Origin: Richelia sp. SL_2_1
GTDB lineage: Bacteria > Cyanobacteriota > Cyanobacteriia > Cyanobacteriales > Nostocaceae
Direction: 5' to 3'
DNA length: 52,733 nt
Assembly: GCA_012033205.1 (NCBI GenBank)
Contig: JAAUSO010000027.1
Coordinates: forward strand, 1-52,733
Of this stretch, positions 256 through 25,939 are shown piece after piece (within the stretch, counting starts at the first letter, position 1; the number at the start of each line of letters is the position of its first letter). Under the pieces are notes generated by a model that was given only the letters and a program-made list of their open reading frames with translations, did not search any database and was not told the origin of the DNA. The position numbers and the translations under genes were made by a program.

Positions 256-425
256 TTAATGGTAATCGACTATTTCAACTTCCGATGCATCTTGCAGTGT
301 CCATATAAAGCAAATTCGATATTGGTCATTAATGCGAATACTATACTGACCTTGGCGTTAGCGTAGCTTTCTGAAAGAATCGCCTTTTAATGCTTAACCT
401 CCAATTTCTGTTATTCAAATGTCAA
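256..425 (-). pseudogene. higB: HigB/RelE-type toxin remnant (3' half)
   Basis: Minus-strand translation ending at TAA 256-258 gives GQYSIRINDQYRICFIWTLQ followed by DASEVEIVDYH. This is the C-terminal signature of HigB (plasmid maintenance killer) toxins, ribosome-dependent mRNA interferases of the RelE fold. Upstream, ALKGD is recognisable, but between GGCGAT and CGCC a 21-bp insertion (358-378) adds an in-frame TAA. Further 5' the reading frame is scrambled (NR-LE-ALKGD with extra bases), and then a 68-bp hairpin repeat (451-518) replaces the start region. The toxin must be dead. The 5' boundary is approximate. Confidence 0.75.
358..378. repeat. 21-bp insertion inside a former HIP1 site of higB
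   Basis: On the + strand the context is GGCG, then 21 bp beginning TTAGCGTAGC and ending GAAAGA, then ATCGCC. Without it the flanks join as GGCGATCGCC, a HIP1 palindrome, and the toxin frame reads KGD-RQGQYS as in intact HigB proteins. The size is like the small dispersed repeats described from Nostoc genomes. See the equivalent insertion at 25609-25635. Confidence 0.65.
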
Positions 426-450
426 ATTATATAAAATACCGAACATGAAA

Positions 451-518
451 TGTTGGGTTACGGCGCATCTTAATTTTTCGTAAACCATACACATATCTGT
501 GCGCCTAACCCAACCTAC
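451..518. repeat. 68-bp hairpin repeat (TGTTGGGTT...AACCCAACCT)
   Basis: The left arm TGTTGGGTTACGGCGCA pairs with the right arm TGCGCCTAACCCAAC around an A/T-rich loop. This type of intergenic hairpin is common in filamentous cyanobacteria. Here it sits where the 5' part of the higB remnant should be. Confidence 0.6.
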
Positions 519-526
519 ATTATATT

Positions 527-565
527 ACCTTTGACCTTTGACCTTTGACCTTTGACCTTTTACCC
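527..565. repeat. Heptamer tandem array (TTTGACC)n
   Basis: About five head-to-tail copies of TTTGACC. It is a typical short tandemly repeated repetitive sequence of heterocystous cyanobacteria and abuts the 3' end of the FAD-domain gene. Confidence 0.85.
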
Positions 566-1414
566 TTTCCTCCTCTTCCCTTTCTGATAACTTTGACTAT
601 TGGGCTGATTTGTAAAGTCTTTTTTGGGAAACAATTTCTCTTCTAACTGTTCATAACTACCTTCAAAATCGCATTTACCGTATAAGGGACATTCTTTACA
701 ATAAACCCCATCGGTATAACGTTCTAAGTTCTCACGATTAAAGAAATAAGGTTTATGACTAAAGGTACTTGCTACCCATTGCCATGACATATTATTACTG
801 GCGGGGTCTCCATCTAATAAATGCTCTAAAAACCATTTTGCCCCTGCTTGCCAGCGAATTCGTCGCCAATGGACGATATATGCTGCAATCCACATCCGCA
901 TATGATTGTGTAGATAACCAGTTTCACGCAATTCTTGACTAAAGCTATCAATACAAACTAATCCTGTATTACCTTGTTGGATATCTTCGGGTAAATCCGG
1001 TGCGTATTCGGCTATGCTGTAACCTGTTTTATATTCTTCTCTATCTTCCCAAATACCGTTTTCTAATTTTACATACAACCTTTGCCAATAATCGCGCCAA
1101 CCTAATTCGTTAACTAACTTTGTCGCATCTTCATCATTACTGACTTTATTTAATGCATAGTCGCGCACTTCTCGCAAGCTCAGAACACCGTAACGCAGAT
1201 AAGCGGAAAGTTTGGTAACTCCACCAGTCAAAAAATTACGTGTTTTTGCGTATTTTTTGGGGTCTACTTTTTGTAGCGTTTTTTCAGCAGCTTTACGTCC
1301 ACCCACGGTTTCGCTGATGTGTTCGTCTCGTTTTGCAGCTTCGGGAAATTGTTCTTTGAGGTAAGCTATCAATTCTTCGCGGTGGTTAAAGTCGCGACGC
1401 ATTTCGTTAGTCAT
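560..1414 (-). CDS. Photolyase/cryptochrome FAD-binding-domain protein (no antenna domain)
   Basis: A 284-residue protein matching only the C-terminal, FAD-binding half of the photolyase/cryptochrome superfamily. Recognisable blocks in order: TKLSAYLRYGVLS, ELGWRDYWQRLY, LRETGYLHNHMRMW, and DGDPASNNMSWQWVASTFS followed by KPYFFN. These form the flavin pocket, and the asparagine in NNMSWQW is the FAD-contact region. The N-terminal alpha/beta antenna domain is absent. Cysteines at about 239, 242 and 248 (CxxCx5C) near the C-terminus could bind a metal or cluster; this is inference. The frame is open up to a TTG/ATG at 1489, but that start lies inside MITE copy 2, so the ATG at 1414 (MTNEMRRDF) is preferred; no clear ribosome site decides it. 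The role may be light-dependent DNA repair or flavin photochemistry; the substrate cannot be told. Confidence 0.85.
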   Translation of the reverse strand: MTNEMRRDFNHREELIAYLKEQFPEAAKRDEHISETVGGRKAAEKTLQKVDPKKYAKTRNFLTGGVTKLSAYLRYGVLSLREVRDYALNKVSNDEDATKLVNELGWRDYWQRLYVKLENGIWEDREEYKTGYSIAEYAPDLPEDIQQGNTGLVCIDSFSQELRETGYLHNHMRMWIAAYIVHWRRIRWQAGAKWFLEHLLDGDPASNNMSWQWVASTFSHKPYFFNRENLERYTDGVYCKECPLYGKCDFEGSYEQLEEKLFPKKDFTNQPNSQSYQKGKRRKG

Positions 1415-1454
1415 TGGTAATAGGGCATTGGTAATAGAGTATTGGGAATGGTAA

Positions 1455-1566
1455 ATATAGCGGTTTTCGGTTGAGTAAAATACATTCAAATTGTGGGGTG
1501 GACATCTTTTTTCGCCCAGTTTTTAGTAATTTTATTTGTATTGCACCCAATTGAAAACCGCTATAT
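1455..1566. mobile_element. MITE copy 2
   Basis: A 112-bp element with the same ends as 99-228: left ATATAGCGGTTTTCGGTTGA, right end TATTGCACCCAATTG then AAAACCGCTATAT. Flanking TA dinucleotides are consistent with a TA target duplication. The core differs from copy 1. It lies directly 5' of the FAD-domain gene and contributes an upstream in-frame start codon to it. Confidence 0.7.
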
Positions 1567-1639
1567 CCCGTCAACCCGACTTAAATGTTAAGGTTGATTC
1601 ACGAAAAAAAATAATGTAACTATTATTACTTGAAATTTA

Positions 1640-2317
1640 ATGAATTTAAAATATCAAAACCAAATAAAAATTATTTTGCTTTTAATTTTTAGCACATCTG
1701 CACTATATTTTCTACTAGCTCGCTTGGGATTTATTTTTCCATTGACGGATATTACAGAAGTTTTATGTATTAAAGGTTGTCCATCACTGCAAGCTGTTCA
1801 CTATCCCGTTTCTGGAAACGAATTACTAAATTACAGTCAAACAGTAGAAGAAATAATTGGAAAAAACATAGATAAAGCCAAAACCTCAATTTTGATTGAA
1901 AAATCCAAGTATCGAATTACGCTTTACTATCACAAAAAGCCGGTTAAATCTTATCCCGTAGTTTTTGGTAGTAGTCCGAAAGGGGATAAGCTGCAAGAAG
2001 GTGACAGACGCACTCCTGAAGGTATTTTTCGCATTAAAGATTTATATCCTCATCCTTCATGGTCTAAGTTTATGTGGTTAGATTATCCCAATGCTGCATC
2101 TTGGAGAAAGCATTTTCAAGCCAAAAGCCAAGGTGAAATTTCCTGGTTCAATTCTATTGGTGGTCAGGTTGGTATACATGGTGTATTCCAAGGAAGGGAT
2201 AAAATCATAGATAAGCAACAAAATTGGACTTGGGGTTGTCCGTCACTAAAAAATCAAGATGTCGATGAGTTATACAAGGTAGTTGAAGTGGGAACATTAG
2301 TAGAAGTTGTTCCTTAA
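1640..2317 (+). CDS. L,D-transpeptidase (YkuD domain), membrane anchored
   Basis: A 225-residue protein with one N-terminal membrane segment (about residues 8-32, KIILLLIFSTSALYFLL) and a C-terminal YkuD/ErfK domain beginning near residue 80 (SILIEKSKYRITLYYHKKPV). The catalytic signature is HGVF at about 180 and TWGCPSL at about 200, giving the His and nucleophile Cys of peptidoglycan L,D-transpeptidases. The family makes 3-3 cross-links or attaches proteins to peptidoglycan in the periplasm. No operon partner: the next gene is convergent. The ATG at 1640 is followed at once by basic residues and the membrane helix, which fits an anchor. Confidence 0.85.
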   Translation: MNLKYQNQIKIILLLIFSTSALYFLLARLGFIFPLTDITEVLCIKGCPSLQAVHYPVSGNELLNYSQTVEEIIGKNIDKAKTSILIEKSKYRITLYYHKKPVKSYPVVFGSSPKGDKLQEGDRRTPEGIFRIKDLYPHPSWSKFMWLDYPNAASWRKHFQAKSQGEISWFNSIGGQVGIHGVFQGRDKIIDKQQNWTWGCPSLKNQDVDELYKVVEVGTLVEVVP

Positions 2318-2407
2318 CGTTTACTTCCTTGGGATTATTAATCGCTTTAAAGATAAGTTAGTAATGGCGATTGATTAGTTTATTGAAAAATGGTTACATG
2401 ATTATTA

Positions 2408-2424
2408 GGGAGCGAGACGCTCCC
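2408..2424. repeat. Perfect hairpin GGGAGCGAGACGCTCCC
   Basis: A 7-bp perfect stem with an AGA loop lying between convergent genes. It resembles a short dispersed cyanobacterial palindrome (GGAGCGAGACGCTCCCACTA). It could also end transcripts, although no T-run follows directly. Confidence 0.5.
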
Positions 2425-2480
2425 ACTACGATATCTTTTTTAAAAATTCAGATGCACTTAAGGTAACTAAGAACTAATTT

Positions 2481-2852
2481 TCATTCATTATCAACAGCGT
2501 ATTGCTTCAATTCATCCAAAGAAACATACTCTAATGCAGCTTCGTGAGTAGCGGATAAAACTACTTTTGGTGCGACTCCATCATCCATTGCTTCCTTCCA
2601 TCGAGAAGCACACAAACACCATTTATCCCCTGGTTTTAAACCGGGAAAATCATACATTGGAACTGGAGTACTCAAATCATTTCCCATAGATTTCGTGTAG
2701 GTGAGAAATTCTTCTGTAACTTCTGCACAAACTACGTGTACACCAAAATATTGAGGTCCCGTATCGCACATTCCATTCCGTAAAAATCCTGTCATCGGAG
2801 AAGTACAGCAAGGTTGCAGCTTTTCTCCAAGTACGTTTTTTGCTTCTGACAT
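2481..2852 (-). CDS. DUF2237 family protein
   Basis: A 123-residue soluble protein that fits the DUF2237 family along its whole length: NVLGEKLQPC near the start, TGFLRNGMCDTG, and GDKWCLCASRWKEAMDDGVA. Several conserved cysteines (C14, C15, and those in GMCDTG and WCLCASRW) suggest metal binding or redox chemistry, but no function is established. The frame opens at 2867, but MSEAKN at 2852 is the more usual start; bases upstream of it are part of an ATTACCAATTATC-like repeat. It is followed by the glycosyltransferase on the same strand. Confidence 0.85.
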   Translation of the reverse strand: MSEAKNVLGEKLQPCCTSPMTGFLRNGMCDTGPQYFGVHVVCAEVTEEFLTYTKSMGNDLSTPVPMYDFPGLKPGDKWCLCASRWKEAMDDGVAPKVVLSATHEAALEYVSLDELKQYAVDNE

Positions 2853-2895
2853 AATACCAATTACCAATTATCAATTACCAATTATCAACCATCAA

Positions 2896-4083
2896 TTACC
2901 AACTAACCAGCTTTCTTTCCTTGATAACCTGCTGATAAACTATTTCTGTTTGTTTAGCAATTTTTGCCCAATTAAACCGCTTTTCTAAATCGGAGTAAGC
3001 ATTATCTTTTAACCACTGACAATAACCGGGATTTTTCAACACTTCCAAAATTCCCCAAGCAAGAGAATCTGGATTATTCACATAAGTAACAACACCTGTT
3101 TTAGTATGTTGAACTACTTCTGGAAAACCGCCTGTATCGGAAACTACTACTGGTACGCGAGCGGCAAAGCTCTCTAAGGCAACTATACCAAAAGGTTCGT
3201 ACAGACTGGGAAATACTGCACAGTCGGCAATTGTTTGAAATTTATCTAAGTATTCATCAGCTATAAAGCCAGTGAAATAGCATTTATGCCAAATACCCAA
3301 ATCCCAAGCTTGTTGTTTGAGTTGATTGGTATTACCACCACCGATAATCACAAATTTGACTTTAGCTCCCATGGAAGAAAGTACTTTGGGTGCTGCATTT
3401 AATAATACAAATATACCTTTTTCATAGGTCATACGACCGACATAATAAACGATTTTTTCATCATCTTCAGCAAATTGACGGCGGAAATCTTGTTTATGAA
3501 ACTGTTGATGATGCTGCTTTTTTTCCGGACGGATACCGTTATAAATTACATCAATTTTATCCCAAGGACTGTTAAGAGAATGTTCTACTTCCCGACGCAT
3601 ATAATTACTGCAAACAATAATTCTCCAAGCCTCAAAAGTCAATTCGTTTTCTTTGCAATCGATGTAGCTTTGAGTATGATTATGAATACCGTTGTGTCGT
3701 CCCGATTCGGTAGCGTGAATGGTGGCAATTAGAGGAACTTTGAAAGTATGTTTAAGAGCGATCGCCGCATCTCCAACCAACCAATCGTGAGCATGAATTA
3801 GATCGAAAGGACCCTCCTCTAACATTAATTTACCACCTTGTCGTCCCATGCTTTGATTCATGTTGACTATCCAGTGGAAAAAATCATGACTTGCTTGTAC
3901 GGGTACCCGATGTACTTTTATCCCTTCGACTTCTTCAAAAAGTGGTGCTTCTCCAAATTCCGGTGTAATCAAGTAAACCGAATGTCCTAACTTTACTAAT
4001 TCGGGGTATAATTCTCCAACATGACGGGCAATTCCACCAACAATACGAGGAGGAAATTCCCAACTTAATACCAGTATTTTCAT
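2896..4083 (-). CDS. Family 4 glycosyltransferase (glycogen-synthase-like fold)
   Basis: A 395-residue GT-B enzyme of family GT4. The N-terminal donor-loop start KILVLSWEFPPRIVGGIARH is typical of GT4/GT5 enzymes that make glycogen-like or sucrose-type products. AHDWLVGDAA lies in the N-domain. VYYVGRMTYEKGIFVLL marks the nucleotide-sugar domain, and the E-x7-E signature is in SLYEPFGIVALES. No signal or membrane segment. The acceptor cannot be deduced. It is separated by about 280 bp from the divergent tldD. Confidence 0.85.
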   Translation of the reverse strand: MKILVLSWEFPPRIVGGIARHVGELYPELVKLGHSVYLITPEFGEAPLFEEVEGIKVHRVPVQASHDFFHWIVNMNQSMGRQGGKLMLEEGPFDLIHAHDWLVGDAAIALKHTFKVPLIATIHATESGRHNGIHNHTQSYIDCKENELTFEAWRIIVCSNYMRREVEHSLNSPWDKIDVIYNGIRPEKKQHHQQFHKQDFRRQFAEDDEKIVYYVGRMTYEKGIFVLLNAAPKVLSSMGAKVKFVIIGGGNTNQLKQQAWDLGIWHKCYFTGFIADEYLDKFQTIADCAVFPSLYEPFGIVALESFAARVPVVVSDTGGFPEVVQHTKTGVVTYVNNPDSLAWGILEVLKNPGYCQWLKDNAYSDLEKRFNWAKIAKQTEIVYQQVIKERKLVSW

Positions 4084-4229
4084 CTTTTACTCCCTACTCT
4101 TTACAAATTGTTGATTTTTTTAACCAATTAAAATAATTAAAAGTGCGATCGCTATTTTTGACGGGAGTATAATTACTCAATTTTGACTAGTTGTAACAAT
4201 TCGGTGACACAAATATTTGAAAATGGGTC

Positions 4230-4285
4230 ACAACAGGTTAGAGGTTAAAGGTTAGAGGTTAAAGGTTAGAGGTTAGAGGTTAGAA
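4230..4285. repeat. Heptamer array (AGAGGTT/AAAGGTT)n
   Basis: Around seven copies of GGTTAAA or GGTTAGA between the divergent glycosyltransferase and tldD genes. The same heptamer family recurs at 16464 and 52630. Confidence 0.85.
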
Positions 4286-4383
4286 CATATTATCCTTATC
4301 TCCCCATCCCGAAAGTCTCCCCATCCCATTCCACGAACCCCGGAACGTGCTAGAAGATATAAGTGACTTATAATTCCGAAAAA

Positions 4384-5784
4384 ATGGCTACTTTAACTGC
4401 TGACACTCAAAATTTACTTGCTGACTTAATTGCTCGTTACTCTCCAAAAGTTGATTATTTGATGATTCGGCTTGAGGAAGCTGAGGGAACTGATATCTTT
4501 TTACGGGGTGATAAGGTGGAGACTCTGAGCGAATGTATTTCGGTTGGGGGACAGGTTAGAGCTTGTTATAAAGGTGGATGGGGTTTAAGCAGCTTTAATC
4601 ATCTTGCCACCATTGAAGACCGTATTCAAGAAGCAATTGCAGCCGCCAGAATTGTCGGTGATGAGGAAACTATATTAGCTCCGATTATTCCGTTACAAGC
4701 AGTATGTCAATTACCGTTAACGGGTACTGACCCCAGAAATATCCCTTTGAGTCAAAAAAAGCAGTTGTGTGATAATTATGCTGATTTACTCAAAAGTATA
4801 GACCATAGGATTACCACTACCTCCGTGCGTTATGGTGATAGCGCTCAAAAAGTAATTATTGCAACTTCCGAAGGTACATTGATCGAACAGTCATGGGTTG
4901 ATATGGAAATGCGTTTCGCTGCAACCGCTAGAAATGGTGATACCGTACAAACAGGTAGAGAAACTACAGGTTCCCGCAAAGCTTTTGAAGATTTAACCAG
5001 TTTAAACGAACAAATTACCAGCGCTGCACGTAGAGCTATATCTGCTTTATCTTTACCTCCAGTCAAAGGTAATACTTATACCGTAGTCATCGACCCAATT
5101 CTTACCGGCTTGTTTGTCCATGAAGCTTTCGGACATCTTTCTGAAGCGGATATGGCTTACGAAAACCCGGATTTATTAGAAGTAATGACTCTAGGAAGAC
5201 AATTTGGACCGGAAGATTTGCAGATTTTTGATGGTGCTGCACCGGAAGGACATCGCGGTAGCTATTATTACGATGATGAGGGTACTCCGGCTAGTACTAC
5301 TCAATTAATTAAAGATGGAATTTTAGTTGGACGTTTGCATTCTCGCGAAACCGCTGGCAAATTAGACGAAACTCCCACAGGTAATTCCCGCTGTCTGAAT
5401 TATCACTATTCCCCCATTGTACGGATGACCAACACCTGGATAGAAAGAGGAAAGACTCCTGTAAATGACTTGTTTTCTGAAATCAAAGAAGGAGTTTACG
5501 CCCTTAATTGGCTGGGTGGAATGACTAATGGGGAAATGTTTACCTTTAGCGCTGGGGAAGCATGGATGATTAGAAATGGTCAAATAGCCGAACCTGTTAA
5601 AGATGTCACTCTTTCTGGTAATGTTTTTCAAACTTTAAAAGATATTGAAGGTATTGGTGATGATTTTTATTGGGATGAATCTGGGGGTTGCGGTAAAGGT
5701 GGACAAAATGGTTTACCTGTAGGTTGCGGTGGTCCCAGTTTAAGGATAAAAAATGTAGTAGTAGGGGGAGAAGTTGATAGTTGA
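4384..5784 (+). CDS. tldD: TldD-type zinc metalloprotease
   Basis: A 466-residue protein of the TldD/PmbA (U62) family. The metal-binding HExxxH is HEAFGH, with H at about 246 and 251. The C-terminal NWLGGMTNGEMFTFSAGEAW and the glycine/cysteine-rich end GGCGKGGQNGLPVGCGGP are typical of TldD. The family acts with PmbA/TldE as a heterodimeric peptidase that trims peptides; no tldE is in this window. GTG at 4363 is an alternative start, but MATLTADTQNLLADL from 4384 matches the usual length. The last codons (EVDS-stop) are formed by the start of a GATAGTT array, so the repeat supplies the stop codon. Confidence 0.92.
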   Translation: MATLTADTQNLLADLIARYSPKVDYLMIRLEEAEGTDIFLRGDKVETLSECISVGGQVRACYKGGWGLSSFNHLATIEDRIQEAIAAARIVGDEETILAPIIPLQAVCQLPLTGTDPRNIPLSQKKQLCDNYADLLKSIDHRITTTSVRYGDSAQKVIIATSEGTLIEQSWVDMEMRFAATARNGDTVQTGRETTGSRKAFEDLTSLNEQITSAARRAISALSLPPVKGNTYTVVIDPILTGLFVHEAFGHLSEADMAYENPDLLEVMTLGRQFGPEDLQIFDGAAPEGHRGSYYYDDEGTPASTTQLIKDGILVGRLHSRETAGKLDETPTGNSRCLNYHYSPIVRMTNTWIERGKTPVNDLFSEIKEGVYALNWLGGMTNGEMFTFSAGEAWMIRNGQIAEPVKDVTLSGNVFQTLKDIEGIGDDFYWDESGGCGKGGQNGLPVGCGGPSLRIKNVVVGGEVDS

Positions 5785-5825
5785 TAGTTGATGGTTGATA
5801 GTTGATAGTTGATGGTTGATAGTTT
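5772..5825. repeat. Heptamer array (GATAGTT)n at the tldD 3' end
   Basis: About seven copies of TTGATAG/TTGATGG starting inside the last tldD codons and running into the intergenic space. Confidence 0.85.
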
Positions 5826-5890
5826 TTATTACCAAGCTTTGACCTTTGAACTTTGACCTATAACCTTTACTTGTTAATTGGTGATTGAAA

Positions 5891-6583
5891 ATGACTATTT
5901 TTGTAAAAAAGAATGTAAATACAATTCCACTTTTAGAAAGTGGAGATAGACTTACACGCAATGAATTTGAACGACGTTATACCGCAATGCCTGATAATAT
6001 GAAAGCGGAATTAATTGAAGGAATTGTATATATGACATCACCCTTAAGCATCAGAAGTCATGGGGAACCTCATGCTAATTTAATTGGCTGGTTATGGAGT
6101 TATAAAATTGCAACTCAAGGCTTGATTTTGGGCGACAATTCTACAGTACGTTTAGATTTAGATAACGAACCTCAACCTGATGTTGTATTATTCATAGATG
6201 AAAATTTGGGCGGACAAGCACGAATTAGTGAAGATGATTATATTGAAGGTTCCCCTGAATTAGTTGCGGAAGTTGCTGCTAGTAGTGCATCTTATGATTT
6301 ATATGATAAGAAAAATGCTTTCCGTCGCAATGGTGTTTTAGAATATATTGTTTGGCAGATTTTTGAAAACAAACTTGATTGGTTTTGTCTACAAGATGGT
6401 GAATACATATGTTTAGAAGCTGATGAGGAAGGAATAATTAAAAGTAGAGTTTTTCCTGGTTTATGGTTGGCTACTTCGGCATTACTCACAGGTGATATGA
6501 AACAAGTTCTCTATATTTTACAACAAGGTTTAAATTCATCAGAACACGCAGAAGTTGTTAAACAGTTGATAGTTGACAGTTGA
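5891..6583 (+). CDS. Uma2 family (DUF820) nuclease-like protein
   Basis: A 230-residue protein of the Uma2/DUF820 family, which is greatly expanded in cyanobacteria and carries a PD-(D/E)XK nuclease-like fold. Typical pieces are AELIEGIVYMTSP, HGEPHANLIGWL, EPQPDVVLFI, GSPELVAEVAASSASYDLYD, KKNAFRRNGVLEYIVW. The D of PQPDV and the E of LVAEV are the expected active-site acids. The biological role is unknown. ATG 5891 is preferred over an upstream TTG (5885). The C-terminal QLIVDS-stop is encoded by the beginning of a TTGACAG array. Confidence 0.88.
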   Translation: MTIFVKKNVNTIPLLESGDRLTRNEFERRYTAMPDNMKAELIEGIVYMTSPLSIRSHGEPHANLIGWLWSYKIATQGLILGDNSTVRLDLDNEPQPDVVLFIDENLGGQARISEDDYIEGSPELVAEVAASSASYDLYDKKNAFRRNGVLEYIVWQIFENKLDWFCLQDGEYICLEADEEGIIKSRVFPGLWLATSALLTGDMKQVLYILQQGLNSSEHAEVVKQLIVDS

Positions 6584-6690
6584 CAGTGGACAGTGGACAA
6601 TTGACAGTGGACAGTTGACAGTTGACAGTTATTTTATTAACCACTATCTACTAACTACTAACTACTAACTACTAACTACTAACTACTAAC
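6566..6690. repeat. Two adjacent heptamer arrays, (GACAGTT/GACAGTGG)n and (ACTAACT)n
   Basis: The first array begins in the last codons of the Uma2 gene. The second, six copies of CTAACTA on the opposite side, runs up to the 3' end of coaE. Confidence 0.8.
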
Positions 6691-7266
6691 GAAATATCGC
6701 AATATCAACTTGTTGTAATAATTCCTCTACATTTGAACTATTATCTAAAACAATATCAGCTTTTTGGATTTTTTCCTTTAAAGACATTTGACTGCTGATT
6801 CTGGCTTGTGCTTGTTCTAAGGTTAATTGATTTCGCTGCATCAATCTTTCTAACTGCTGTTGTTCCGAACAACTTACTACCCAAATTTCCGTTACTAAGT
6901 CTGTCATACCCGCTTCAAATAATAAAGGCACAACTGAGACTAGAGTTTCTACTGATGTTTCTTTGATGGCAACAGAAAGGCGATCGCCAACGTAAGGATG
7001 AATCAAGTTATCTGTCCACAAGCGTTCTTGTTGATTATTAAAGATGATTTCACCTAGTTTTTGTCGGTTGAGACTGCCATCAGTGAGTAAAATTTTTCTC
7101 CGTAACGTTTGACTATTTGCTGTAAAAGCAGCGAATTAACAGCAACAGCTTCTCTAGCATAAATGTCTGCATCCAATATCGGTAAATTATAAGCATCAGC
7201 TAAATAATTAGCGACAGTTGTTTTACCTGTCGCTATACCACCAGTTAATCCGATTATACGTTTCAT
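6686..7266 (-). pseudogene. coaE: Dephospho-CoA kinase, frameshifted
   Basis: CoaE performs the last step of coenzyme A synthesis, phosphorylating dephospho-CoA at the ribose 3'-OH. The 5' part reads MKRIIGLTGGIATGKTT with the P-loop at residues 9-16 and LDADIYAREAV. After IVKRYGEK the frame breaks. Adding one A to the five-A run (7093-7097, T on the + strand) gives GEKILLTDGSLNRQKLGEII and then IFNNQQERLWTDNLIHPYVG, continuing to the stop at 6686 as a normal 193-residue enzyme. The lid region LMQRNQLTLEQAQARI and the end KADIVLDNS are intact. CoaE is normally essential, so a sequencing slip in the homopolymer, or slippage that restores the frame, is as likely as a real null allele. The ATG at 7266 is the family start. 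Confidence 0.88.
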
Positions 7267-7349
7267 GAATGATTGACAATTAGGAATAGAAGTTGATTCG
7301 TAATTATCCATTATCTATCAACAATTCCCAATTACCCATTTTCTATTAC

Positions 7350-8213: not shown

Positions 8214-8256
8214 GAATTTGGAGTGCAAAGCGCCTCTAAGATGGGAAAGCCTCTAA

Positions 8257-8994: not shown

Positions 8995-9048
8995 CCGATT
9001 TGAGATTTTAGATTATGTCCTACGAACAAAGTGCGTTAATGGATTGAT

Positions 9049-9077: not shown

Positions 9078-9108
9078 TTAACGAACAATTGGTCATATCT
9101 TAAGAATA

Positions 9109-9310
9109 CAGGATGAACAACGTGACGTAATCCACACACTCCCCTTCGGCCGGTAGCTTTTGGGGGGAAGCTCCCCCAAACGTGCCTTGTGAATGTGGGC
9201 TTCTCAGGGACTCTTCTATGAAGACATTGACTGAGCTTTAAGACCGTGCGCCCCACGGTTCTTCGATTGAATCGGACAATTAGCTTTTGTTTCAATAGGC
9301 TGCATTTCTG
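9109..9310 (-). mobile_element. Probable decayed 3' end of an IS200/IS605-type element
   Basis: On the minus strand, a short stretch coding RGAHGLKAQSMSS-stop resembles the tail of TnpB-like proteins. It is followed by TGAGAAGCCCACATTC, a GGGGGAGCTTCCCCC palindrome and GAGTGTGTGG, a layout like the structured right end of cyanobacterial IS605-family elements. Several stops and no catalytic region are seen, so it is a remnant at best. Confidence 0.35.
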
Positions 9311-10225: not shown

Positions 10226-10231
10226 CGTCAA

Positions 10232-12039: not shown

Positions 12040-12119
12040 CTACATAATTAATATAGATGGTGATTAAGCCGTGTGAAAAACTGTTACTTTGAACAAAAAG
12101 TTCTTCAGAACAAAAATTA

Positions 12120-16552: not shown

Positions 16553-16557
16553 TTAAT

Positions 16558-17727: not shown

Positions 17728-17756
17728 TTATTTTTTGATTATTAATGAGGAAAAAT

Positions 17757-18098: not shown

Positions 18099-18109
18099 AT
18101 AGGAGATAC

Positions 18110-18140
18110 TTGACAGTTGACAGTTGACAGTTGACAGTTA
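18110..18140. repeat. Heptamer array (GACAGTT)n
   Basis: About four copies of TTGACAG, followed by ATTACCA/CCCAATT-type repeats up to the end of the GAF-TPR gene. Confidence 0.8.
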
Positions 18141-18194
18141 TTTCTCCTCATTCCCAATTACCAATTACCCATTCCCAATTACCAATTACCATTC

Positions 18195-19691
18195 TTATCC
18201 CTTTCTTGCCCATACCATTTTATAATCTTCCATTGCGCCGGTATAATCTTTAAGTTTAGAACGGGCATTACCCCGACTAATATAAGCTTTATCATTATCA
18301 GGCTTTAAAATTAAAGCTTGAGTATAATATTCAATTGCTTTCTCATAGTTTTTCATTTCGCAACAAGTATTACCCAGTCCAATATAAGCTTTATCATTAT
18401 CAGGATTTAGCCGCAAAGTTTGGGTATAATCTTCGATTGCATCACCATAATTTTTCAACTTATAATTAGCATGACCCCGATTTAGATAAATCAAAGCATT
18501 GTTAGAATTTAGTTGTAACGCTAAAGTATAGTTTTCTAATGCTTTAGTGTAATTTTGATTTTTATAACAATCATTAGCTAGTTTTATATAAACTTCTACA
18601 TTTTCAGATAATGGTGGTAAATTTTCCGCAGATTCCGAAATTGCTCGATGGTATTCGTTGTTGAGTTCTGAACTGATAATATTAGAATCAACAGTAACTG
18701 TATAGTCAGGTTGAATTGATGTAGCTTCAATAGAATCTAAAGTTATTTTTTGATAATAATCTTCACTTTCAGGAAGAATTAATTCCGAATTATGGTTATC
18801 AACCTGGCTATAATTATTTATATATTCAGGATTAATGCTTAAACCTTGTGTATAATCAGCAGTTGCTCCATTGTAATCTCCAAGTTGAGAACGGATAAGT
18901 CCTCTACTATATCTAGCTTCCGCATCCGCCGGGTTGAAGCGTAAATATTGATTTAAATCTGCAATTGCATTTTGATAGTCTCCTAACTTGTGAAAAGCTA
19001 ATCCTCGTTGATGATAAGCTTTAATTCCATTGGGTTTGATTTGTAAATACTGGCTAAAATCTACTATTGCGGCTTGGTAATTACCTTTTTGAAGTTTATC
19101 TAAACCTCTTCGATAAATGACTTCAATAAACTCTTGTTTTTGGCGAATTTCTGCATCTTTTTGCTGTCGTTTTATGATATTACGCGATACAGTCAACACA
19201 TTACGTCGCATTTCCAATTGTGCTATTACTTGATTACTTAATGCTCTTAATCCTTCTTGTTGCTCTAAACTTAAATCTCGTGCTACTGTGTCAACTACAC
19301 ATAATGTTCCGATACCAAATCCTTCTGGTGTAATTAACGGTGCGCCAGCATAAAACCGAATTTTCGGTTCTTGAGCAACCAAAGGGTTGTCTGCAAATCT
19401 AGAGTCTTTTAAAGCATTAGGAACAACTAAGGGTTGCTGCTGCATTATTGCATAAGCACAGAAGGCTACATCTCTGGGTGTACAATCTACATCTACACCA
19501 ACCTTCGATTTGAACCATTGGCGATCGCCATCGACAAAACTAATCAATGCAATGGGGGTACGACAAATTTGTGCAGCTAAAAAGGTAAAATCATCAAATA
19601 CTTTTTCTGAGGGAGTATCGAGTATTTGATATTGTCTAAGTGCTGCTAATCTAGCTAGTTCGTTATGAGGTAGTGGTGGCTGCAAACCCAT
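18195..19691 (-). CDS. GAF-domain protein with TPR repeats
   Basis: A 498-residue protein. Residues about 10-165 form a GAF domain of the type that opens many cyanobacterial sensor kinases: RLAALRQYQILDTPSEKVFD, ICRTPIALISFVDGDRQWFK, CAYAIMQQQPLVV, and IRFYAGAPLITPEGFGIGTL. After a helical linker there are about seven TPR units with the A-Y-x-x-R-G / G-D-Y-x-x-A-I-x-D-Y pattern, three between about 205 and 315 and four from about 390 to the end, separated by a variable segment. No output kinase or cyclase domain is present, so it is a sensor/scaffold of unknown ligand. GGAG 10 bases before ATG 19691 decides the start over 19754. Confidence 0.85.
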   Translation of the reverse strand: MGLQPPLPHNELARLAALRQYQILDTPSEKVFDDFTFLAAQICRTPIALISFVDGDRQWFKSKVGVDVDCTPRDVAFCAYAIMQQQPLVVPNALKDSRFADNPLVAQEPKIRFYAGAPLITPEGFGIGTLCVVDTVARDLSLEQQEGLRALSNQVIAQLEMRRNVLTVSRNIIKRQQKDAEIRQKQEFIEVIYRRGLDKLQKGNYQAAIVDFSQYLQIKPNGIKAYHQRGLAFHKLGDYQNAIADLNQYLRFNPADAEARYSRGLIRSQLGDYNGATADYTQGLSINPEYINNYSQVDNHNSELILPESEDYYQKITLDSIEATSIQPDYTVTVDSNIISSELNNEYHRAISESAENLPPLSENVEVYIKLANDCYKNQNYTKALENYTLALQLNSNNALIYLNRGHANYKLKNYGDAIEDYTQTLRLNPDNDKAYIGLGNTCCEMKNYEKAIEYYTQALILKPDNDKAYISRGNARSKLKDYTGAMEDYKMVWARKG

Positions 19692-19748
19692 TTTTATGTT
19701 TCTCCAAAAATTATTTTTAGAAAATAAAATTAATTGATTTTGAATTAA

Positions 19749-19772
19749 CTCCACGGACTAATCCGCGAGTTG
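19749..19772. repeat. Short hairpin repeat, copy 2 of 3
   Basis: CTCCACGGACTAATCCGCGA, stem CGGA/TCCG around CTAA. Related to 9049 and 20258. Confidence 0.5.
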
Positions 19773-20257
19773 AAATGTTGTAGTAGGTCTATAACATGAG
19801 GAACGAATGAAGATGAGCCAAAATTCCTAAAATCTCTAATTGAAACTAGAATTTACAATCTAACATTTATTTGGTTGGTAATACCGCAATGTATAGCACA
19901 TTAAACAAATATGAAATCATCATATCTTTCATAGTTTTTTAAGTATTTTATATTATATATTTGTTTATATTTATCACTTAATTATCTCAAGTAATAGTAT
20001 TTTTTCTCACCTTAATTAAAAATTTACTTTGATTTAAATTTTTATGTATAACACCATGTGACAGTTTTAAAACAATCCTATTGGAGTTATGAAGATATTG
20101 GTTTTACTAGTTCACTGCTAGCTGTTAACAGCCAATATTTCATGAATCCTCAACGTAATATTATATTAGTATATCTAATTTTATTCAGGGGATGTGAGTA
20201 TAATTCGTAATTCGTAATTAATTCCCCATAAATAATGGTGCTTTTCGCGAGTATAAA

Positions 20258-20280
20258 TCCACGGATAAATCCGGGGGCTA
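20258..20280. repeat. Short hairpin repeat, copy 3 of 3
   Basis: TCCACGGATAAATCCGGGGG, stem CCGGATTTATCCG-like. It is followed by GGCTATGACC...GCTAACAAA, which resembles a diverged form of the repeat at 26001. Confidence 0.5.
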
Positions 20281-20427
20281 TGACCTGACGGTCACCATAA
20301 GCTAACAAACCTTAACAAATTAACTTGGTGATACAAGTAACATGAAAAAGTTGATTTTGAAAATTAATTAATGAATAAATTGAATGATTATTATCTATTA
20401 TTTAAATTTTTTTGACTTGACAATGTT

Positions 20428-20616
20428 ATGATCAATAAAACCGTTGCGGTGGCAATGATGTTAGCTGGAATATCCGCCGCTTTAATATGGAAAACCACCC
20501 CCGAATTATCAAGACTTGTTTACGAAGTACTTCCTGGAATGGCTGCGGGAATACTAGTTTATTTGATAGCTCAGTTTTTCATTGGTGGAAATTTGAAAAC
20601 AGTTAGTAGGCAATAA
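20428..20616 (+). CDS. Small two-helix membrane protein, unknown function
   Basis: A 62-residue protein with two predicted membrane helices (TVAVAMMLAGISAALIW and GMAAGILVYLIAQFFIGG) joined by a short loop with K, E and R. The end pattern resembles the last helices of some transporters, so a truncated permease is possible. It lies 26 bp before ureE on the same strand and could be co-transcribed with the urease accessory genes; a role in nickel or urea transport is only a guess from position. Confidence 0.5.
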   Translation: MINKTVAVAMMLAGISAALIWKTTPELSRLVYEVLPGMAAGILVYLIAQFFIGGNLKTVSRQ

Positions 20617-20642
20617 AAAACCTTTGAATTTACTTTTATATT

Positions 20643-21086
20643 GTGTTAACCTTCACTCACTTTCAACCTCGAAACGCCCATTTAACGGTTAGTTTAACAC
20701 TTTCACTGACCGCAGAACAACGTACTCGTTCCAGATATCATTTTCCAGCTTCCGATGGACAGATGGTATGTTTATGTTTACCAAGGGGTACTATATTAAA
20801 AGATGGTGATATTTTACAAGATGAAACTAATAATATTTCGATTAAAATTATCGCCAAACCGGAACCAGTTTTAACTGTAAAAACTCAAAATCAGCTAGAT
20901 TTAATCAAAGCCGCATATCATTTGGGAAATCGTCATGTAAAGTTAGAAATTACACCAAATTATTTACGTTTATCTCCTGATTCGGTGTTACATCAAATGT
21001 TAGAAAACCTTGGTTTACAAGTCACAGAAGAGATTTTACCATTTCAACCGGAAACAGGAGCTTATGGACAGCATCATCCACATTAA
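20643..21086 (+). CDS. ureE: Urease accessory protein UreE
   Basis: A 147-residue nickel metallochaperone. The N-terminal peptide-binding domain ([37 protein letters not shown]) is followed by the metal-binding domain with [14 protein letters not shown] (the conserved nickel His) and a His-containing tail YGQHHPH. It starts with GTG at 20643; no ATG is available in the right place. It delivers nickel to the UreFG(H) complex for urease activation. The structural urease genes and ureD/H are not in this window. Confidence 0.9.
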
Positions 21087-21170
21087 AGGTTCGGGGGGAT
21101 GGGGAGATGGGGGAAAGTAAATTCTTAACTTTTCATTTTTAATCTAAAGTCTAAAATCTAAAATCTAAAA

Positions 21171-21845
21171 TTGATTGACCATAATCTTCTTTGTCTTTTA
21201 CAGCTTGTCAGTCCTGCTTTACCCGTGGGAGCATATAGTTATTCTGAGGGATTAGAAACCCTAGTTGAAAATCAGATAATTAACAATGTTGAAAGCCTTA
21301 AACACTGGTTAAACCAGGAACTACGTTACGGTACAATTCGCATAGAAGCAGCGGTGATGTTAAGAGCTTATCGTGCTGTGAACAGTTATGATTTATCAAC
21401 TTTATCTTACTGGAATAATTGGCTATCAGCCGCACGAGAAACCGCAGAATTACGCAATCAATCCCAACAAATGGGGGGTTCCTTGATTCGCTTATTGAAA
21501 GAATTACAGCCGCAAATGATGCCGATAATTACAGCTTGTGGTAGTCCCTGTAACTTTGCGATCGCCTTTGGGATTGCTGCTGCAAATTGGCATATTAATC
21601 CACAAGCTGCGTTACTCGGATATCTACACAGTTGGGTTAATAATTTAATTACTGCTGGAATCAAGTTGATTCCTTTAGGACAAACCGCAGGACAATTATT
21701 ATTATTAGAATTGCAAGAATTAATTATCGCGATCGCAGTAGAAATTATCAACTTAACTGACGATGAATTAAGTTGTTGTAGTTGGGGTTTATCATTGGCA
21801 AGTATGGGACACGAACAGCAGTATACAAGATTATTTCGTAGCTAG
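21171..21845 (+). CDS. ureF: Urease accessory protein UreF
   Basis: A 224-residue all-helical Ure[21 protein letters not shown] near the start is the family signature, then [30 protein letters not shown], and the C-terminal [17 protein letters not shown]. It couples UreG GTP hydrolysis to nickel insertion. The start is a TTG at 21171, as no ATG lies upstream in frame; the region before it is a CTAAAAT repeat. It is followed by ureG after 30 bp. Confidence 0.9.
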
Positions 21846-21875
21846 AAATTATTATCAATTAAGAATTAAGAAATC

Positions 21876-22469
21876 ATGAGTTTTAGAGTTGGTGTTGCAG
21901 GTCCAGTGGGTTCGGGAAAGACTGCTTTAGTAGAAGCTTTATGTAAATCTATGCGCGATTCTTATCAAATTGCAGTTGTAACAAATGATATTTACACTCA
22001 AGAAGATGCAGAATTTTTAACCAAATCCCAAGCCTTAGAAAAAGAAAGAATTCTCGGTGTAGAAACTGGTGGTTGTCCTCATACTGCTATCCGAGAAGAT
22101 GCTTCAATGAATTTAGCTGCAATTGAACAGTTAGAGATGCGTTTCTCCGATTTAAATTTAGTATTTTTAGAAAGTGGTGGTGATAATTTGGCTGCAACTT
22201 TTAGCCCCGAATTGGTCGATTTAACTATTTACGTTATTGATGTTGCTGCTGGTGATAAAATTCCCCGTAAGGGTGGTCCAGGTATTACTAAATCTGATTT
22301 ACTAGTAATAAATAAAATTGATTTAGCTCCCTATGTTGGTGCGGATTTACAGATTATGGAAGCAGATGCTCGCAAAATGCGTGGTGAAAAGCCTTTTATA
22401 TTTACAAATTTGAAAAAACAACAAGGTTTAAGTAAGATTGTTGAATTTGTTTCGGCAAATATTTGCTAG
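21876..22469 (+). CDS. ureG: Urease accessory GTPase UreG
   Basis: A 197-residue SIMIBI-class GTPase. P-loop GPVGSGKT at 9-16, then [15 protein letters not shown], the Cys-Pro-His nickel site [32 protein letters not shown], and the guanine-binding NKIDLAPYV. It hydrolyses GTP during nickel transfer to urease. It closes the ureE-ureF-ureG group. Confidence 0.95.
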
Positions 22470-22570
22470 TAATAATAATTTTAGTGGGCGTTGAACAAGC
22501 TACTAGTACTACTTTTTGTTATCTGTTAATTGATGACTGTTTTTAATATCAGAAATTATTATATATTTTT

Positions 22571-22584
22571 GTATCATGAAATAC
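22571..22584 (+). promoter_or_regulatory. NtcA-type site upstream of cphB
   Basis: GTATCATGAAATAC is a perfect GTA-N8-TAC match. A possible -10 box TAAATT (TAN3T) begins 20 bases downstream at 22605, close to the 22-base spacing usual for NtcA-activated promoters. cphB starts at 22644. Nitrogen control of cyanophycin turnover is biologically expected; binding is inferred. Confidence 0.55.
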
Positions 22585-22643
22585 ATTATAATAATATTAA
22601 GATTTAAATTATATTTATTCTTAAATAGATATTCGGAGGGTAA

Positions 22644-23471
22644 ATGGCGCAGGATAGCACCCGTGGAGCGTTGTTAATTATTGGCGGTGCGGAAGATAAA
22701 CAAAGGGAATGCGAGATTCTGCGAGAATTTATTCGCTATGCAGGAGGTACGAAAGCAAGAGTTGTAATTATTACATCTGCAACGGACTTACCGATAGAAG
22801 TAGGACAGGAATATATTCGCGTATTTGAGCAGTTGGGTGTAGAAGATGTCCGCATCGTTGATACCAGAAGTAAAGAAGATGCAGATTCTGAGAGTGCATT
22901 GCAAGATATTGATAAAGCTACTGGTGTATTTTTTGGTGGGGGAGATCAAGCTAGAATTGTCGATACGATTAAAGATACTCAATTGGATGCAGCGATTCAC
23001 CGGCGCTTATCTGAGGGAATGATAGTAGCAGGTACCAGTGCTGGGGCTGCGATAATGCCGGATATTATGATTGTTGATGGTGATTCGGAAACACATCCTC
23101 GAATAGAAATTGTCAAAATGTGTCCTGGAATGGGTTTTTTCCCAGGAGTAATTGTAGACCAACATTTTTCCCAGCGTGCGCGTATGGGACGTTTAATTTC
23201 AGCTTTAGCACAGCAAGAACAAGCAGTTTTAGGATTTGGAATTGACGAAAATACTGCGATGTTAGTTGTAGATCGCAAAATTAGAGTGATTGGAGAAGGT
23301 GCACTCACCATAATTGACGAGACAGATGTCACTCATAGTAATATTGATGATATTTTGATCGATGAAGGGTTGGCAATTATTGGTGCAAAGCTGCATATTC
23401 TGCCACGGGGATATGAATTTGATTTGGAGACTCGTAAAGCGATTCCAAATCAGTTAATAGTTAAGAGTTAG
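22644..23471 (+). CDS. cphB: Cyanophycinase
   Basis: A 275-residue serine peptidase (S51 family) that degrades cyanophycin to beta-Asp-Arg dipeptides. Signature blocks are ALLIIGGAEDK, VVIITSAT, GVFFGGGDQARI, and the nucleophile motif VAGTSAGAAIM with Ser at about 132, followed by GMGFFPGVIVDQHFSQRARM and GFGIDENTAMLV. GGAGGG 7 bases before the ATG is a strong ribosome site. Cyanophycin synthetase, often next door, is replaced here by rpsO. The last residues NQLIVKS-stop come from a TTAATAGTTAAGAG repeat. Confidence 0.95.
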   Translation: MAQDSTRGALLIIGGAEDKQRECEILREFIRYAGGTKARVVIITSATDLPIEVGQEYIRVFEQLGVEDVRIVDTRSKEDADSESALQDIDKATGVFFGGGDQARIVDTIKDTQLDAAIHRRLSEGMIVAGTSAGAAIMPDIMIVDGDSETHPRIEIVKMCPGMGFFPGVIVDQHFSQRARMGRLISALAQQEQAVLGFGIDENTAMLVVDRKIRVIGEGALTIIDETDVTHSNIDDILIDEGLAIIGAKLHILPRGYEFDLETRKAIPNQLIVKS

Positions 23472-23570
23472 GAATTAGTGTCTCCCCGAACCCCATCTTA
23501 ATTAATCACACAGTGAAATGGCTATGATAATATAGGAGACTGCTGCCTAGATTCAAGAAAAAGTCGATTT

Positions 23571-23840
23571 ATGAGCCTAACACAAGAGCGAAAACAAGAG
23601 TTAATCTCACAATACCAAGTTCACGAAACCGATACTGGTTCTGGTGAAGTGCAAGTTGCGATGCTCACTGACAGGATTAACCGCTTGAGCAAACATTTGC
23701 AAGTTAATAAAAAAGACCATTCTTCCCGTCGGGGACTATTGAAAATGATTGGTCAACGTAAGCGTCTTTTGTCTTATATTCAAAAAGGAGACCGCGAACG
23801 TTATAAAACTTTAATTCAAAGTCTCGGTATTCGTGGATAA
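23571..23840 (+). CDS. rpsO: 30S ribosomal protein S15
   Basis: An 89-residue S15: [59 protein letters not shown]. It binds the central domain of 16S rRNA. It has its own promoter region (TATGATAATAT about 40 bp upstream) and is followed 18 bp later by the PAM68 gene. Confidence 0.97.
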
Positions 23841-23858
23841 ATAAAAGAGCCGCTGATT

Positions 23859-24326
23859 ATGTCTGCCGAATCTGAACGCAACCGCTTACCTTTTGAACCG
23901 AACAAAAAGCGCCAAAAGCCAAAAACAAAGGCTCAAGTGCCAATTGTCAAGGAAGAACTTTCTTCTGAGACAAAGCAAAAAAAACCTCCTTTTACTAAAC
24001 AGGAAATGGCTATTCCCCAAGTTGTTAGCCAGCGGATGATAAGAAGAGTAGCTTGGTTATGTGGAGTACCAACCATTTTGGGTATTCTGACTTTAGTCGT
24101 GAGTTATTTGCTGATCATCTACAGTGATATCAAGCTTCCTCCAATACTGGTATTGCTTGTCAATATGGGGCTGTTTGGTTTGGGAGTTTTGGGAATTACT
24201 TATGGAGTTCTTTCTGCTTCTTGGGATGAAGATAGAGTGGGGACTCGGCTTGGTTTGAACGAGTTTACTACCAATTGGCGACGAATGGTAGCAGGTTGGC
24301 GCGAGACTCGGCAAAAAAAAGTATAA
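23859..24326 (+). CDS. PAM68-family photosystem II assembly protein
   Basis: A 155-residue protein: a basic, Lys/Pro-rich N-terminus (FEPNKKRQKPKTKAQVP), VVSQRMIRRVAWLCGVPTIL leading into membrane helix 1, helix 2 (VLLVNMGLFGLGVLGITYGV), then LSASWDEDRVGTRLG and a C-terminal Trp/Arg helix. These are hallmarks of PAM68, which helps insert chlorophyll and CP43/CP47 into photosystem II early intermediates in the thylakoid membrane. The rpsO-PAM68 neighbourhood is common in cyanobacteria. Confidence 0.9.
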   Translation: MSAESERNRLPFEPNKKRQKPKTKAQVPIVKEELSSETKQKKPPFTKQEMAIPQVVSQRMIRRVAWLCGVPTILGILTLVVSYLLIIYSDIKLPPILVLLVNMGLFGLGVLGITYGVLSASWDEDRVGTRLGLNEFTTNWRRMVAGWRETRQKKV

Positions 24327-24473
24327 AAAAGATGAAGGATGAATAATCCAACTTTCATTCTTCATACTTAATTTTGGTTAAAACCTGTAAAATTCATGTG
24401 AGTTCGATATTCACTACTTTGATTGCTGATTAAATTATAAGCAAGCTGTAAAAACTTGATTTTTTGTGCGGTT

Positions 24474-24537
24474 AGAAGTCGGGTTTTTATCAAGATTGTC
24501 TGTTACCACTGAAATTTATCCTAAAAACCCGACTTCT
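24474..24537. repeat. Palindromic repeat, AGAAGTCGGGTTTTTA family, copy 1
   Basis: A 16-bp perfect inverted repeat AGAAGTCGGGTTTTTA/TAAAAACCCGACTTCT around a 32-bp loop, between the convergent PAM68 and P450 genes. The same arms occur at 37905-37965 with a different loop. It may serve as a two-way terminator. Confidence 0.7.
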
Positions 24538-24568
24538 TTGAGGGTGTCGAACTCACGTTAACTGTTGC

Positions 24569-25939
24569 CTACTCCCTCTTCCCTGCTCTTTTAACTTTCA
24601 ACGACACTCCACCACTGGGAACAATTGTAATTCCCCGTCGCATCGGTTTTACTGGTTTTTTATCAGTTAATTCCAATTCAAATTTGGATAAAATTGTTGT
24701 TAAAATCAACTTCATTTCGTACATTGCAAAAGCGGAACCAATACAACCACGATAACCTCCTCCAAAAGGCAGGTATTCAAATGCGGAAAATTTTTGATTG
24801 AGAAATCTTTCGGGAATAAATTTATCTGGTTGTTGGTAAGTTGCTTCTCGACGATGGGCTAAATAGATGCAGGGAACTAAAACTGTACCGGAATCATATT
24901 TTTTTCCAGCAACTTCTATTTTATCTAGAGTCATCCGGGGAGTACAAATTAAAGCGATGGGGTGAAGTCGCATTGTTTCGCAGCAAACCGCATTTAAGTA
25001 AGGTAATTGAGTTATTCTTTCGGGAGAATTTTCATTATCTAAAGTTTGTAATTCATTGATTAACTTCTTCTTTACTTCTGGATGTGAGTGAATCAGATAA
25101 AATAACCAAGCTAAGACTCCAGAGGTGGTTTCGTAACCTAAAAGTAGTAAAGAAACTAATTGGTCTCGCAATTCTTTATCTGTCATTTTCTCATTTTCTT
25201 CGTCACGCGCTGACATTAATAAGCTTAAAATATCTGTATCTAAATTATCTAAATTATTGCACTTAGTTCTACGTTCGGAAATTTCTGCATAGATTAATTG
25301 ATCAATTTCTTTGCGTCTTTGGAGATAATTTCCCCAAGGACTCCATTTTCCCAAATCTTTTTGTAAAGGTGGAAAGAAAAACAAACTAGAATACCAAGGT
25401 TTAGTAATGTCATTTAATAGTGCAGTTAATAATTTTCTTAACTTCTGATAACGTTCTCCTGGAGTGATTCCAAATACAACTTGCAGGATAATTTGTAAAG
25501 TGATATCCGGCATTACTTGCTGCATGGAAACAATATTATCAACCTGCCAACTGCTTGTGACATATTCAGTTATACGACAGATTGTATTCCCATAAGATTT
25601 AAGGCGATTAGCTCCGCTAAACGTCTTCGACGTAACGCCATGAAAGGGAGGCATCAATAATTGTCTTTGACGGTTGTGGGATTTACCTTCTTGAAAGACG
25701 ATGGAATCACTGCCAAATAAGGGTTTGAATACGTGGGTAGCTCTTTTGAAATCTAATTTTTTGCTGGGAATTGCAAAACAATCATCAATCGCTTGAGGAC
25801 TGCTAAAAAAGACAACTGGTGGCGAATTTACACCTAATACTCTTAAAGTAAAAATATCACCGTATGTTGCTGCTTGGTTATCAAAAAATTTTGTAGGATT
25901 AGCAATTAGTTGTAAGGTTTGGATTAAGGAATTGGTCAT
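24569..25939 (-). CDS. Cytochrome P450 with a 9-residue in-frame insertion
   Basis: A 456-residue heme monooxygenase resembling the cyanobacterial CYP110 group. I-helix LLLLGYETTSGVLAW, K-helix ETMR, and the heme loop FGGGYRGCIG with Cys at about 399. Compared with the paralogue at 26926 the segment after MPPFHG has ten residues (VTSKTFSGAN) where the paralogue has one Asp (HGDRM): a 27-bp insertion at 25609-25635 in what would read GGCGATCGCC. It sits near the B'/C helices, so substrate access could change. The substrate is unknown; fatty-acid or terpenoid oxidation is typical for the group. Confidence 0.9.
   Translation of the reverse strand: MTNSLIQTLQLIANPTKFFDNQAATYGDIFTLRVLGVNSPPVVFFSSPQAIDDCFAIPSKKLDFKRATHVFKPLFGSDSIVFQEGKSHNRQRQLLMPPFHGVTSKTFSGANRLKSYGNTICRITEYVTSSWQVDNIVSMQQVMPDITLQIILQVVFGITPGERYQKLRKLLTALLNDITKPWYSSLFFFPPLQKDLGKWSPWGNYLQRRKEIDQLIYAEISERRTKCNNLDNLDTDILSLLMSARDEENEKMTDKELRDQLVSLLLLGYETTSGVLAWLFYLIHSHPEVKKKLINELQTLDNENSPERITQLPYLNAVCCETMRLHPIALICTPRMTLDKIEVAGKKYDSGTVLVPCIYLAHRREATYQQPDKFIPERFLNQKFSAFEYLPFGGGYRGCIGSAFAMYEMKLILTTILSKFELELTDKKPVKPMRRGITIVPSGGVSLKVKRAGKRE
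25609..25635. repeat. 27-bp insertion inside a former HIP1 site of the P450 gene
   Basis: On the + strand GGCGAT is followed by 27 bp starting TAGCTCCGCTAAACG and ending CGACGTAA, then CGCC. The flanks join to GGCGATCGCC. Insertion point and the ending (ACGTAA versus ACGCTAA) match the higB insertion at 358-378 read on the opposite strand. The length keeps the P450 frame open. Confidence 0.65.

Follow-up and report, generated by a model that had tools for sequence, protein, structure and literature searches.

Two-hairpin inserts of 21 and 27 nt in a Richelia genome fit the SDR5 type of HIP1-targeted mobile repeat

Eight families of small dispersed repeats (SDRs), 21–27 nt long, were reportedly described from Nostoc punctiforme and its relatives by Elhai et al. 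(2008, Genome Res 18:1484); SDR4, SDR5 and SDR6 are said to have a fold in common, with compensatory changes, SDR5 to occur exclusively in the palindrome HIP1 (GCGATCGC), and RNA intermediates to have been proposed for SDR movement. According to the part of PMC4390886 that deals with it, SDR5 lies between the third and the fourth nucleotide of HIP1, which, since HIP1 is palindromic, corresponds to the point between the fifth and the sixth nucleotide of the opposite strand. At this point, GCGAT|CGC, within GGCGAT|CGCC flanks, two short inserts are found in the stretch of DNA analysed here (the window), i.e. the 52,733 nt of contig JAAUSO010000027.1 (C338) from the 7.55 Mb genome of Richelia sp. 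SL_2_1: one of 27 nt in a cytochrome P450 gene and one of 21 nt in the remnant of a HigB-like toxin gene (higB). They represent two length classes, which are alike in fold and target more than in sequence. Very probably, they are non-coding, non-autonomous two-hairpin copies of the SDR5 type, located between T5 and C6 of HIP1; enzymatic joining of a folded strand would have brought them there. Our data show that the inserts have one insertion point in common, that copies are dispersed and that the stems covary, and they include exact pairs of filled and empty sites at four loci of the 27-nt class. The idea of a HIP1-targeting mini-repeat was already published with SDR5, and the present inserts fit as genuine members of that class.

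HIP1 occurs 22 times in the window versus 0.1 times expected, and the chance of a random point landing on its GCGAT|CGC step is about 0.0006 in a sample of the window's own genome. In a preliminary description of this DNA, the positions of both inserts, their lengths and a common ACG(C)TAA ending had been given, all of which proved exact on direct reading of the two sites. That both lengths are multiples of three is correct for these inserts, but it is not a rule, with repeated members of 22 and 29 nt also existing. The central proposal, a very small mobile repeat targeting HIP1, is borne out: relatives do not carry the segments as ancestral sequence but show intact empty HIP1 sites instead, and inserts at GCGAT|CGC are alike in sequence and fold beyond controls.

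The product of the P450 gene matches Pfam PF00067. Its nine additional residues begin at codon 102, between HG and DR, and the reading frame survives with them, as had been noted, whereas the paralogue P0002 has HGDR at this place. The insert is identical in three genomes, i.e. that of the window and those of Rivularia sp. T60_A2020_040 (G002, locus L013) and Plectonema cf. radiosum LEGE 06105 (G001, locus L014), which among named records are also nearest to the window P450 (96% and 94%, respectively). Twelve of the 13 loci L015–L027 are without additional residues (L021, like many more distant loci from L028 on, was missed by the scoring motif); they show HGDR (L015, L016, L018, L020, L022, L023, L027) or the variants HGGR (L017), HGDC (L019), HGDQ (L024, L025) and HGER (L026). 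The DNA of the empty site is an intact GGCGATCGCC in L015, L016 and L027, contains GCGATCGC in L018 and L020, and reads GGCGGTCGCC in L017. Among the genomes with the nine additional residues the gene is under purifying selection, as shown by ratios of non-synonymous to synonymous substitution rates (dN/dS), relative to the window, of 0.218 for L013 and 0.235 for L014 (a segment of 1371 nt with no stop at its end). In the predicted structure (32 sequences; mean predicted local distance difference test score, pLDDT, 83.5), the added residues are part of a low-confidence stretch (101–110) between helices 85–100 and 109–128. The insert is thus a derived feature, tolerated by the gene and kept in frame. 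A HIP1 at the homologous position of P0002 was considered and dropped, its HIP1 at 28027–28034 falling, as judged by position, in an upstream NGDR.

Further members of the 27-nt class (class A) were located with a covariance model, R1, built from nine class A sequences. It returned 84 rows, in which three palindromic copies are counted on both strands, or about 81 places, in all eight genomes of the genus searched (17, 6, 25, 12, 6, 14, 2 and 2 rows per genome), with 15 places in the window's own genome. A model from mixed members, R2, gave a poor consensus structure and was discarded. At each of the four class A loci looked at, i.e. P450 and three of the 14 other places in the own genome, at least one relative has an intact empty HIP1. 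The C331 locus is filled in G002, whereas G004 has an exact 27-nt gap, GGCGATCGC, with an intact GCGATCGC, and exactly 27 nt are also missing from G001. For C38:8852, the site in G004 is empty with GCGATCGC, and G002 has a 27-nt gap at GCGCTCGC; C38:10836 is filled in G001 but empty, with GCGATCGC, in G002. In the remaining relatives, an alignment at the C331 and C38 loci was too poor at the site for scoring, or there was none. Exact empty sites in close relatives confirm the precise insertion of elements of 21–27 nt into HIP1 and supply cases with an assignable position in a phylogeny, including one insert that is in frame within a gene still under selection. In a search across 148 genomes of the order, the stricter filters of which lose weak matches, class A was detected in the own genome (16 rows) and, with one match each, in six of the 147 others. 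The class may be a subfamily absent from Elhai et al. 2008; among the genomes sampled it is almost limited to one genus, which sets it apart from SDR5. At G000:C237:390-533 and 1699-1733 (L214, L219), four class A copies are present, three of which form a direct tandem array with a unit length of 54–55 bp.

Members of both classes consist of two adjacent hairpins with covarying stems. In the P450 insert the predicted stems are TTAGC/GCTAA and ACGTC/GACGT, with loops of 3 nt and an AA tail, the first T of TTAGC being the last base of GCGAT. The class A alignment (A3) comprises 16 hand-picked 35-nt sequences (11 from the own genome, four from G001 and one from G033), from which the G006 and G007 inserts of 29 nt, the own C281 and a G123 copy were excluded, as was row G001_C85 of the nine-sequence alignment A1, which MAFFT had misaligned and which was scored as unpaired. 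Here, 95.6% of the cells are paired, and 22 cells are changed on both sides versus 6.5 ± 2.2 in shuffles, none of 500 shuffles reaching this number. For the 21-nt class, the alignment (A4) consists of 50 hand-picked distinct sequences, i.e. 46 from among the matches listed in the search of the order described below, three from other searches and the higB insert, some further distinct sequences among those listed being unused; 93.0% of its cells are paired and 65 are changed on both sides, compared with 21.0 ± 3.9 in shuffles (0/500). Rfam has no match above the gathering score in the window.

The higB gene is represented in the window by approximately its last 38 codons, preceded by unrelated sequence; its intact relative in G001 is a HigB-like toxin (Pfam PF05015). 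The 21 nt are missing from the higB relatives in G001, G005 and G007. The insert does introduce the stop codon ascribed to it, but truncation has affected the gene as well, only a 3' remnant being present. Similarly, the claim that both inserts had split a former HIP1 holds for P450, with its intact sites in relatives, whereas for higB the HIP1 is inferred. For the 21-nt class, a search pattern with 17 fixed bases matched 137 of the 388 genomes searched in the order, with a maximum of 184 matches in one genome (G276), while the reversed pattern has none in the genomes listed. Each of 12 genomes of genus g87 contains 62 to 184 matches, and the own genome contains five; the 388-genome count provides a basis for correlating candidate enzymes. 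In 632 kb of G276, inserts of 21, 24 and 27 nt number 38, 43 and 37, versus a mean of 26 for lengths of 6–44 nt; inserts of 44 nt also number 37 and those of 7, 15 and 29 nt 34 each, and since length 44 equals length 27 the peak at 27 alone is no proof. By eye, two-hairpin elements are recognizable at 11 of the G276 places with a 21-nt insert and at several of those with 24 or 27 nt. Pairs of 21-nt matches in opposite orientation, 328–503 bp apart, were seen at G160:C1:4025122-4025657, G209:C1:2335541-2336100 and G198:C60:94274-94658; in two of the three pairs the two sequences are identical.

Compared with SDR5, the present inserts have the same insertion point at P450 and the other class A loci, and at higB if a HIP1 was once there; the 21- and 27-nt inserts lie within 21–27 nt, with related inserts of 22 and 29 nt existing; a structure with compensatory changes is found in both classes; recent mobility is evident at four class A loci, higB providing absence at a non-HIP1 site only; and the hosts are likewise cyanobacteria. 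A fold similar to that reportedly found in SDR4 and SDR6 occurs in repeats at window positions 26001–26027 and 32939–32965 and in G276, but these are outside HIP1. The two window repeats (on the plus and minus strands, respectively) have the form ATGTCC....GGACACGCTGCGCTAAC, the first being imperfect, and probably belong to other SDR families.

Several observations weigh against an assignment to SDR5-type elements moving into HIP1. The inserts are assigned to this type by insertion point, length, fold and mobility rather than by comparison with its published consensus. Folded alone, the P450 insert is weakly better than shuffles (z −1.75) and the higB insert no better (z −0.13), and the fold therefore rests on covariation. 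The shuffles keep relatedness, the structure was drawn from the same hand-picked sequences, and two other measures of covariation show no excess: further pair types in class A number 8 versus 8.2 in shuffles, and the 21-nt class, in which only four of six pairs are free to vary with the others fixed by the search pattern, has 4 pairs changed on both sides versus 3.3 (169/500). None of the higB relatives in G001, G005 and G007 has HIP1 at the site, which reads GGTGAACGT or GGTGAACTT instead. Of 21 places with a 21-nt-type core in the scanned stretches, ten are in HIP1 and 11 have no preceding GCGAT; the latter may represent other SDR families. At C38:10836, filled in the own genome and G001 but empty in G002, a precise loss may have occurred.

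Two less specific scans also weigh against the assignment. In a three-genome sample, a fold-energy anchor scan gave no excess at GCGAT..CGC. A stricter scan of 1.25 Mb of three genomes found two-hairpin inserts in 6 of 558 cases at GCGAT..CGC versus 48 of 15902 at 59 permuted anchors, but two of the six rows are one place and some are chance-like; a loose two-hairpin scan (1.25 Mb) was uninformative, with 1160 versus 994 in a Markov control for the own-genome part. As to plain patterns, GGCGAT-N(12-40)-CGCC occurs 156 times in the own genome versus 142 times reversed, which is no clear excess. GCGAT-N(10-26)-TAACGC was above its control in four and below it in four of the eight genus genomes. 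In the window, GCGAT-N(10-40)-CGC occurs 26 times versus 10.6 expected, with GCGAT itself enriched there via HIP1. Plain patterns are thus undecisive, and with at most tens of elements per genus genome, fold or sequence is needed for their detection.

How such elements would move we infer from fold and joint, and this dependence, which extends to the nature of the strand (DNA or RNA) and the acting enzyme, also counts against the full reading. Because the fold is conserved more than the sequence and the join is exact, an enzyme encoded elsewhere would recognize the folded single strand, which would be joined at a cut or nick in HIP1 at GCGAT^CGC, without target duplication or with a duplication of two bases, AT, at most. 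Among the 16 class A ends, nine read ATCGC, which fits such a two-base duplication, and seven read AACGC, which does not. A tentative alternative is the RNA route that the authors of the 2008 study reportedly proposed, i.e. a folded transcript that is reverse-spliced or reverse-transcribed into HIP1. It would be in line with a two-hairpin fold with compensatory changes and with a length of 21–27 nt, which is too short for an open reading frame (ORF). A fold of one-strand RNA should tolerate G-U, however, and G-T pairs in the stems are not above A-C mismatches (11 versus 12 overall, 6 versus 9 in the 21-nt set and 5 versus 3 in class A); coming from small, hand-picked sets, these counts are a first weak hint against an RNA fold. 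That a cellular enzyme cuts a two-hairpin single strand of DNA of 21–27 nt and joins it at GCGAT^CGC, with fold and target defining the element more than sequence does, seems unlikely on present evidence; if true, with DNA in place of the proposed RNA, this would be about the smallest mobile DNA.

Single-stranded DNA would also be the substrate of a Y1/HUH transposase (of the IS200/IS605 or RAYT-like type), as for REPINs, a route that we regard as rather doubtful. Enzymes of this family act on paired hairpins, insert on the 3' side of a fixed short motif and cause no target duplication, all of which match the present elements, and Y1 (PF01797) matches are found in all eight genus genomes. Divergent long-frame Y1 matches, labelled 'RAYT-like' by score and length, are present, however, in five of these (G000, G001, G003, G005 and G006) and in none of G002, G004 and G007, which nonetheless hold 14, 6 and 12 class A rows. 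Moreover, the 12 Y1 matches in the own genome are all outside the window contig, and in the sole insertion sequence group for which an end could be mapped (one end, in four copies) this end is TTTTGATAG, flanked by unrelated sequence instead of HIP1; from this one end, the resident IS200/605 elements are no obvious source. The REPIN approach could help to explain the origin of SDRs, as a passage in PMC3116915 puts it, and GTAG-tagged repetitive extragenic palindromes (REPs) of Anabaena and Nostoc figure in an excerpt of PMC3733652. REPs and REPINs, which are moved by RAYTs, resemble the present elements in being very short non-autonomous hairpins but differ in that the P450 insert has no GTAG and the target is HIP1. 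The REPIN tag, GTAG or CGTC unpaired at the foot of the hairpin, is not seen, the CGTC and GACG of the P450 insert lying inside its second stem. Miniature inverted-repeat transposable elements (MITEs) such as Nezha are likewise non-autonomous and without ORF, but the present elements are far shorter, and inspection of the alignments by eye revealed no consistent terminal inverted repeats and no clear target duplication.

An equally doubtful route would dispense with a dedicated transposase: the inserts may be passengers of HIP1-directed recombination or repair, in which a PvuI-like or repair nick at CGAT^CG is closed by means of a short strand that was copied from some other SDR. The insertion point is presumably the cut position of PvuI-type (CGAT^CG) and GCGATCGC-cutting (GCGAT^CGC) enzymes, and the nine ATCGC ends look as though AT had been duplicated. 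HIP1-linked site-specific recombination and a partly deleted gene resembling a CGATCG endonuclease in Calothrix PCC 7103 are mentioned in the relevant section of PMC4390886. The seven AACGC ends speak against a simple AT duplication, and such repair leaves unexplained the constraint on two hairpins and the similar-fold repeats outside HIP1. A chance origin, by ordinary small indels or hairpin-templated errors that happened to fall in HIP1, is highly improbable, since, despite other indels of 12–60 bp in the same alignment and plain pattern tests without clear excess, the same sequences recur at unlinked loci with exact lengths and intact empty HIP1 sites (4/4 in class A), and the reversed 21-nt pattern goes unmatched.

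Table 1. Positions of the inserts, the split HIP1 parts and the genes concerned in the window
Feature	Position	Strand	Basis
27-nt two-hairpin insert (class A) in P450 gene	25609..25635	+	direct reading; empty in L015, L016, L027
GGCGAT, left part of split HIP1 (P450)	25603..25608	+	
CGCC, right part of split HIP1 (P450)	25636..25639	+	
Cytochrome P450 gene, 456 aa, insert in frame (nine additional residues)	24569..25939	-	
21-nt insert (two-hairpin 21-nt class) in higB remnant, adds stop codon	358..378	-	direct reading
GGCGAT, left half of putative HIP1 (higB)	379..384	-	
CGCC, right half of putative HIP1 (higB)	354..357	-	
HigB-like toxin gene remnant, 3' end only, including insert	256..395 (approximate limits)	-	
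Third candidate, 22 bp missing from Plectonema (G001)	37559..37580 (equally 37553-37574, ambiguous placement)	+	alignment

A third candidate listed in the preliminary description, at 37553–37582, is real: it splits HIP1, and its 22 bp are missing from one relative, Plectonema, which has an intact HIP1, CGCGATCGC, at this place. It is, however, a separate dispersed repeat of another sequence family, and its predicted fold is not of the two-hairpin type. With up to three mismatches its motif occurs at 20 places, six in the own genome and seven each in G001 and G002, and at none in five other genomes of the genus; the reversed pattern has no match. At this site G002 has other sequence, with the right part the same: opposite window position 37553, locus L179 (G002:C81) carries a differing segment between two HIP1 copies, GCGATCGC-AATGAGCTTGCACTAC-GCGATCGC.

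Elsewhere in the window, 26 bp at 12063–12088 are missing from G002, where the joint is exact and lies outside HIP1, and an inverted repeat, TTTGGGGGGAAGCTCCCCCAAA, is located at 9159–9180. At 531–571 there is an array of the heptamer TGACCTT, the copy number of which varies among relatives.

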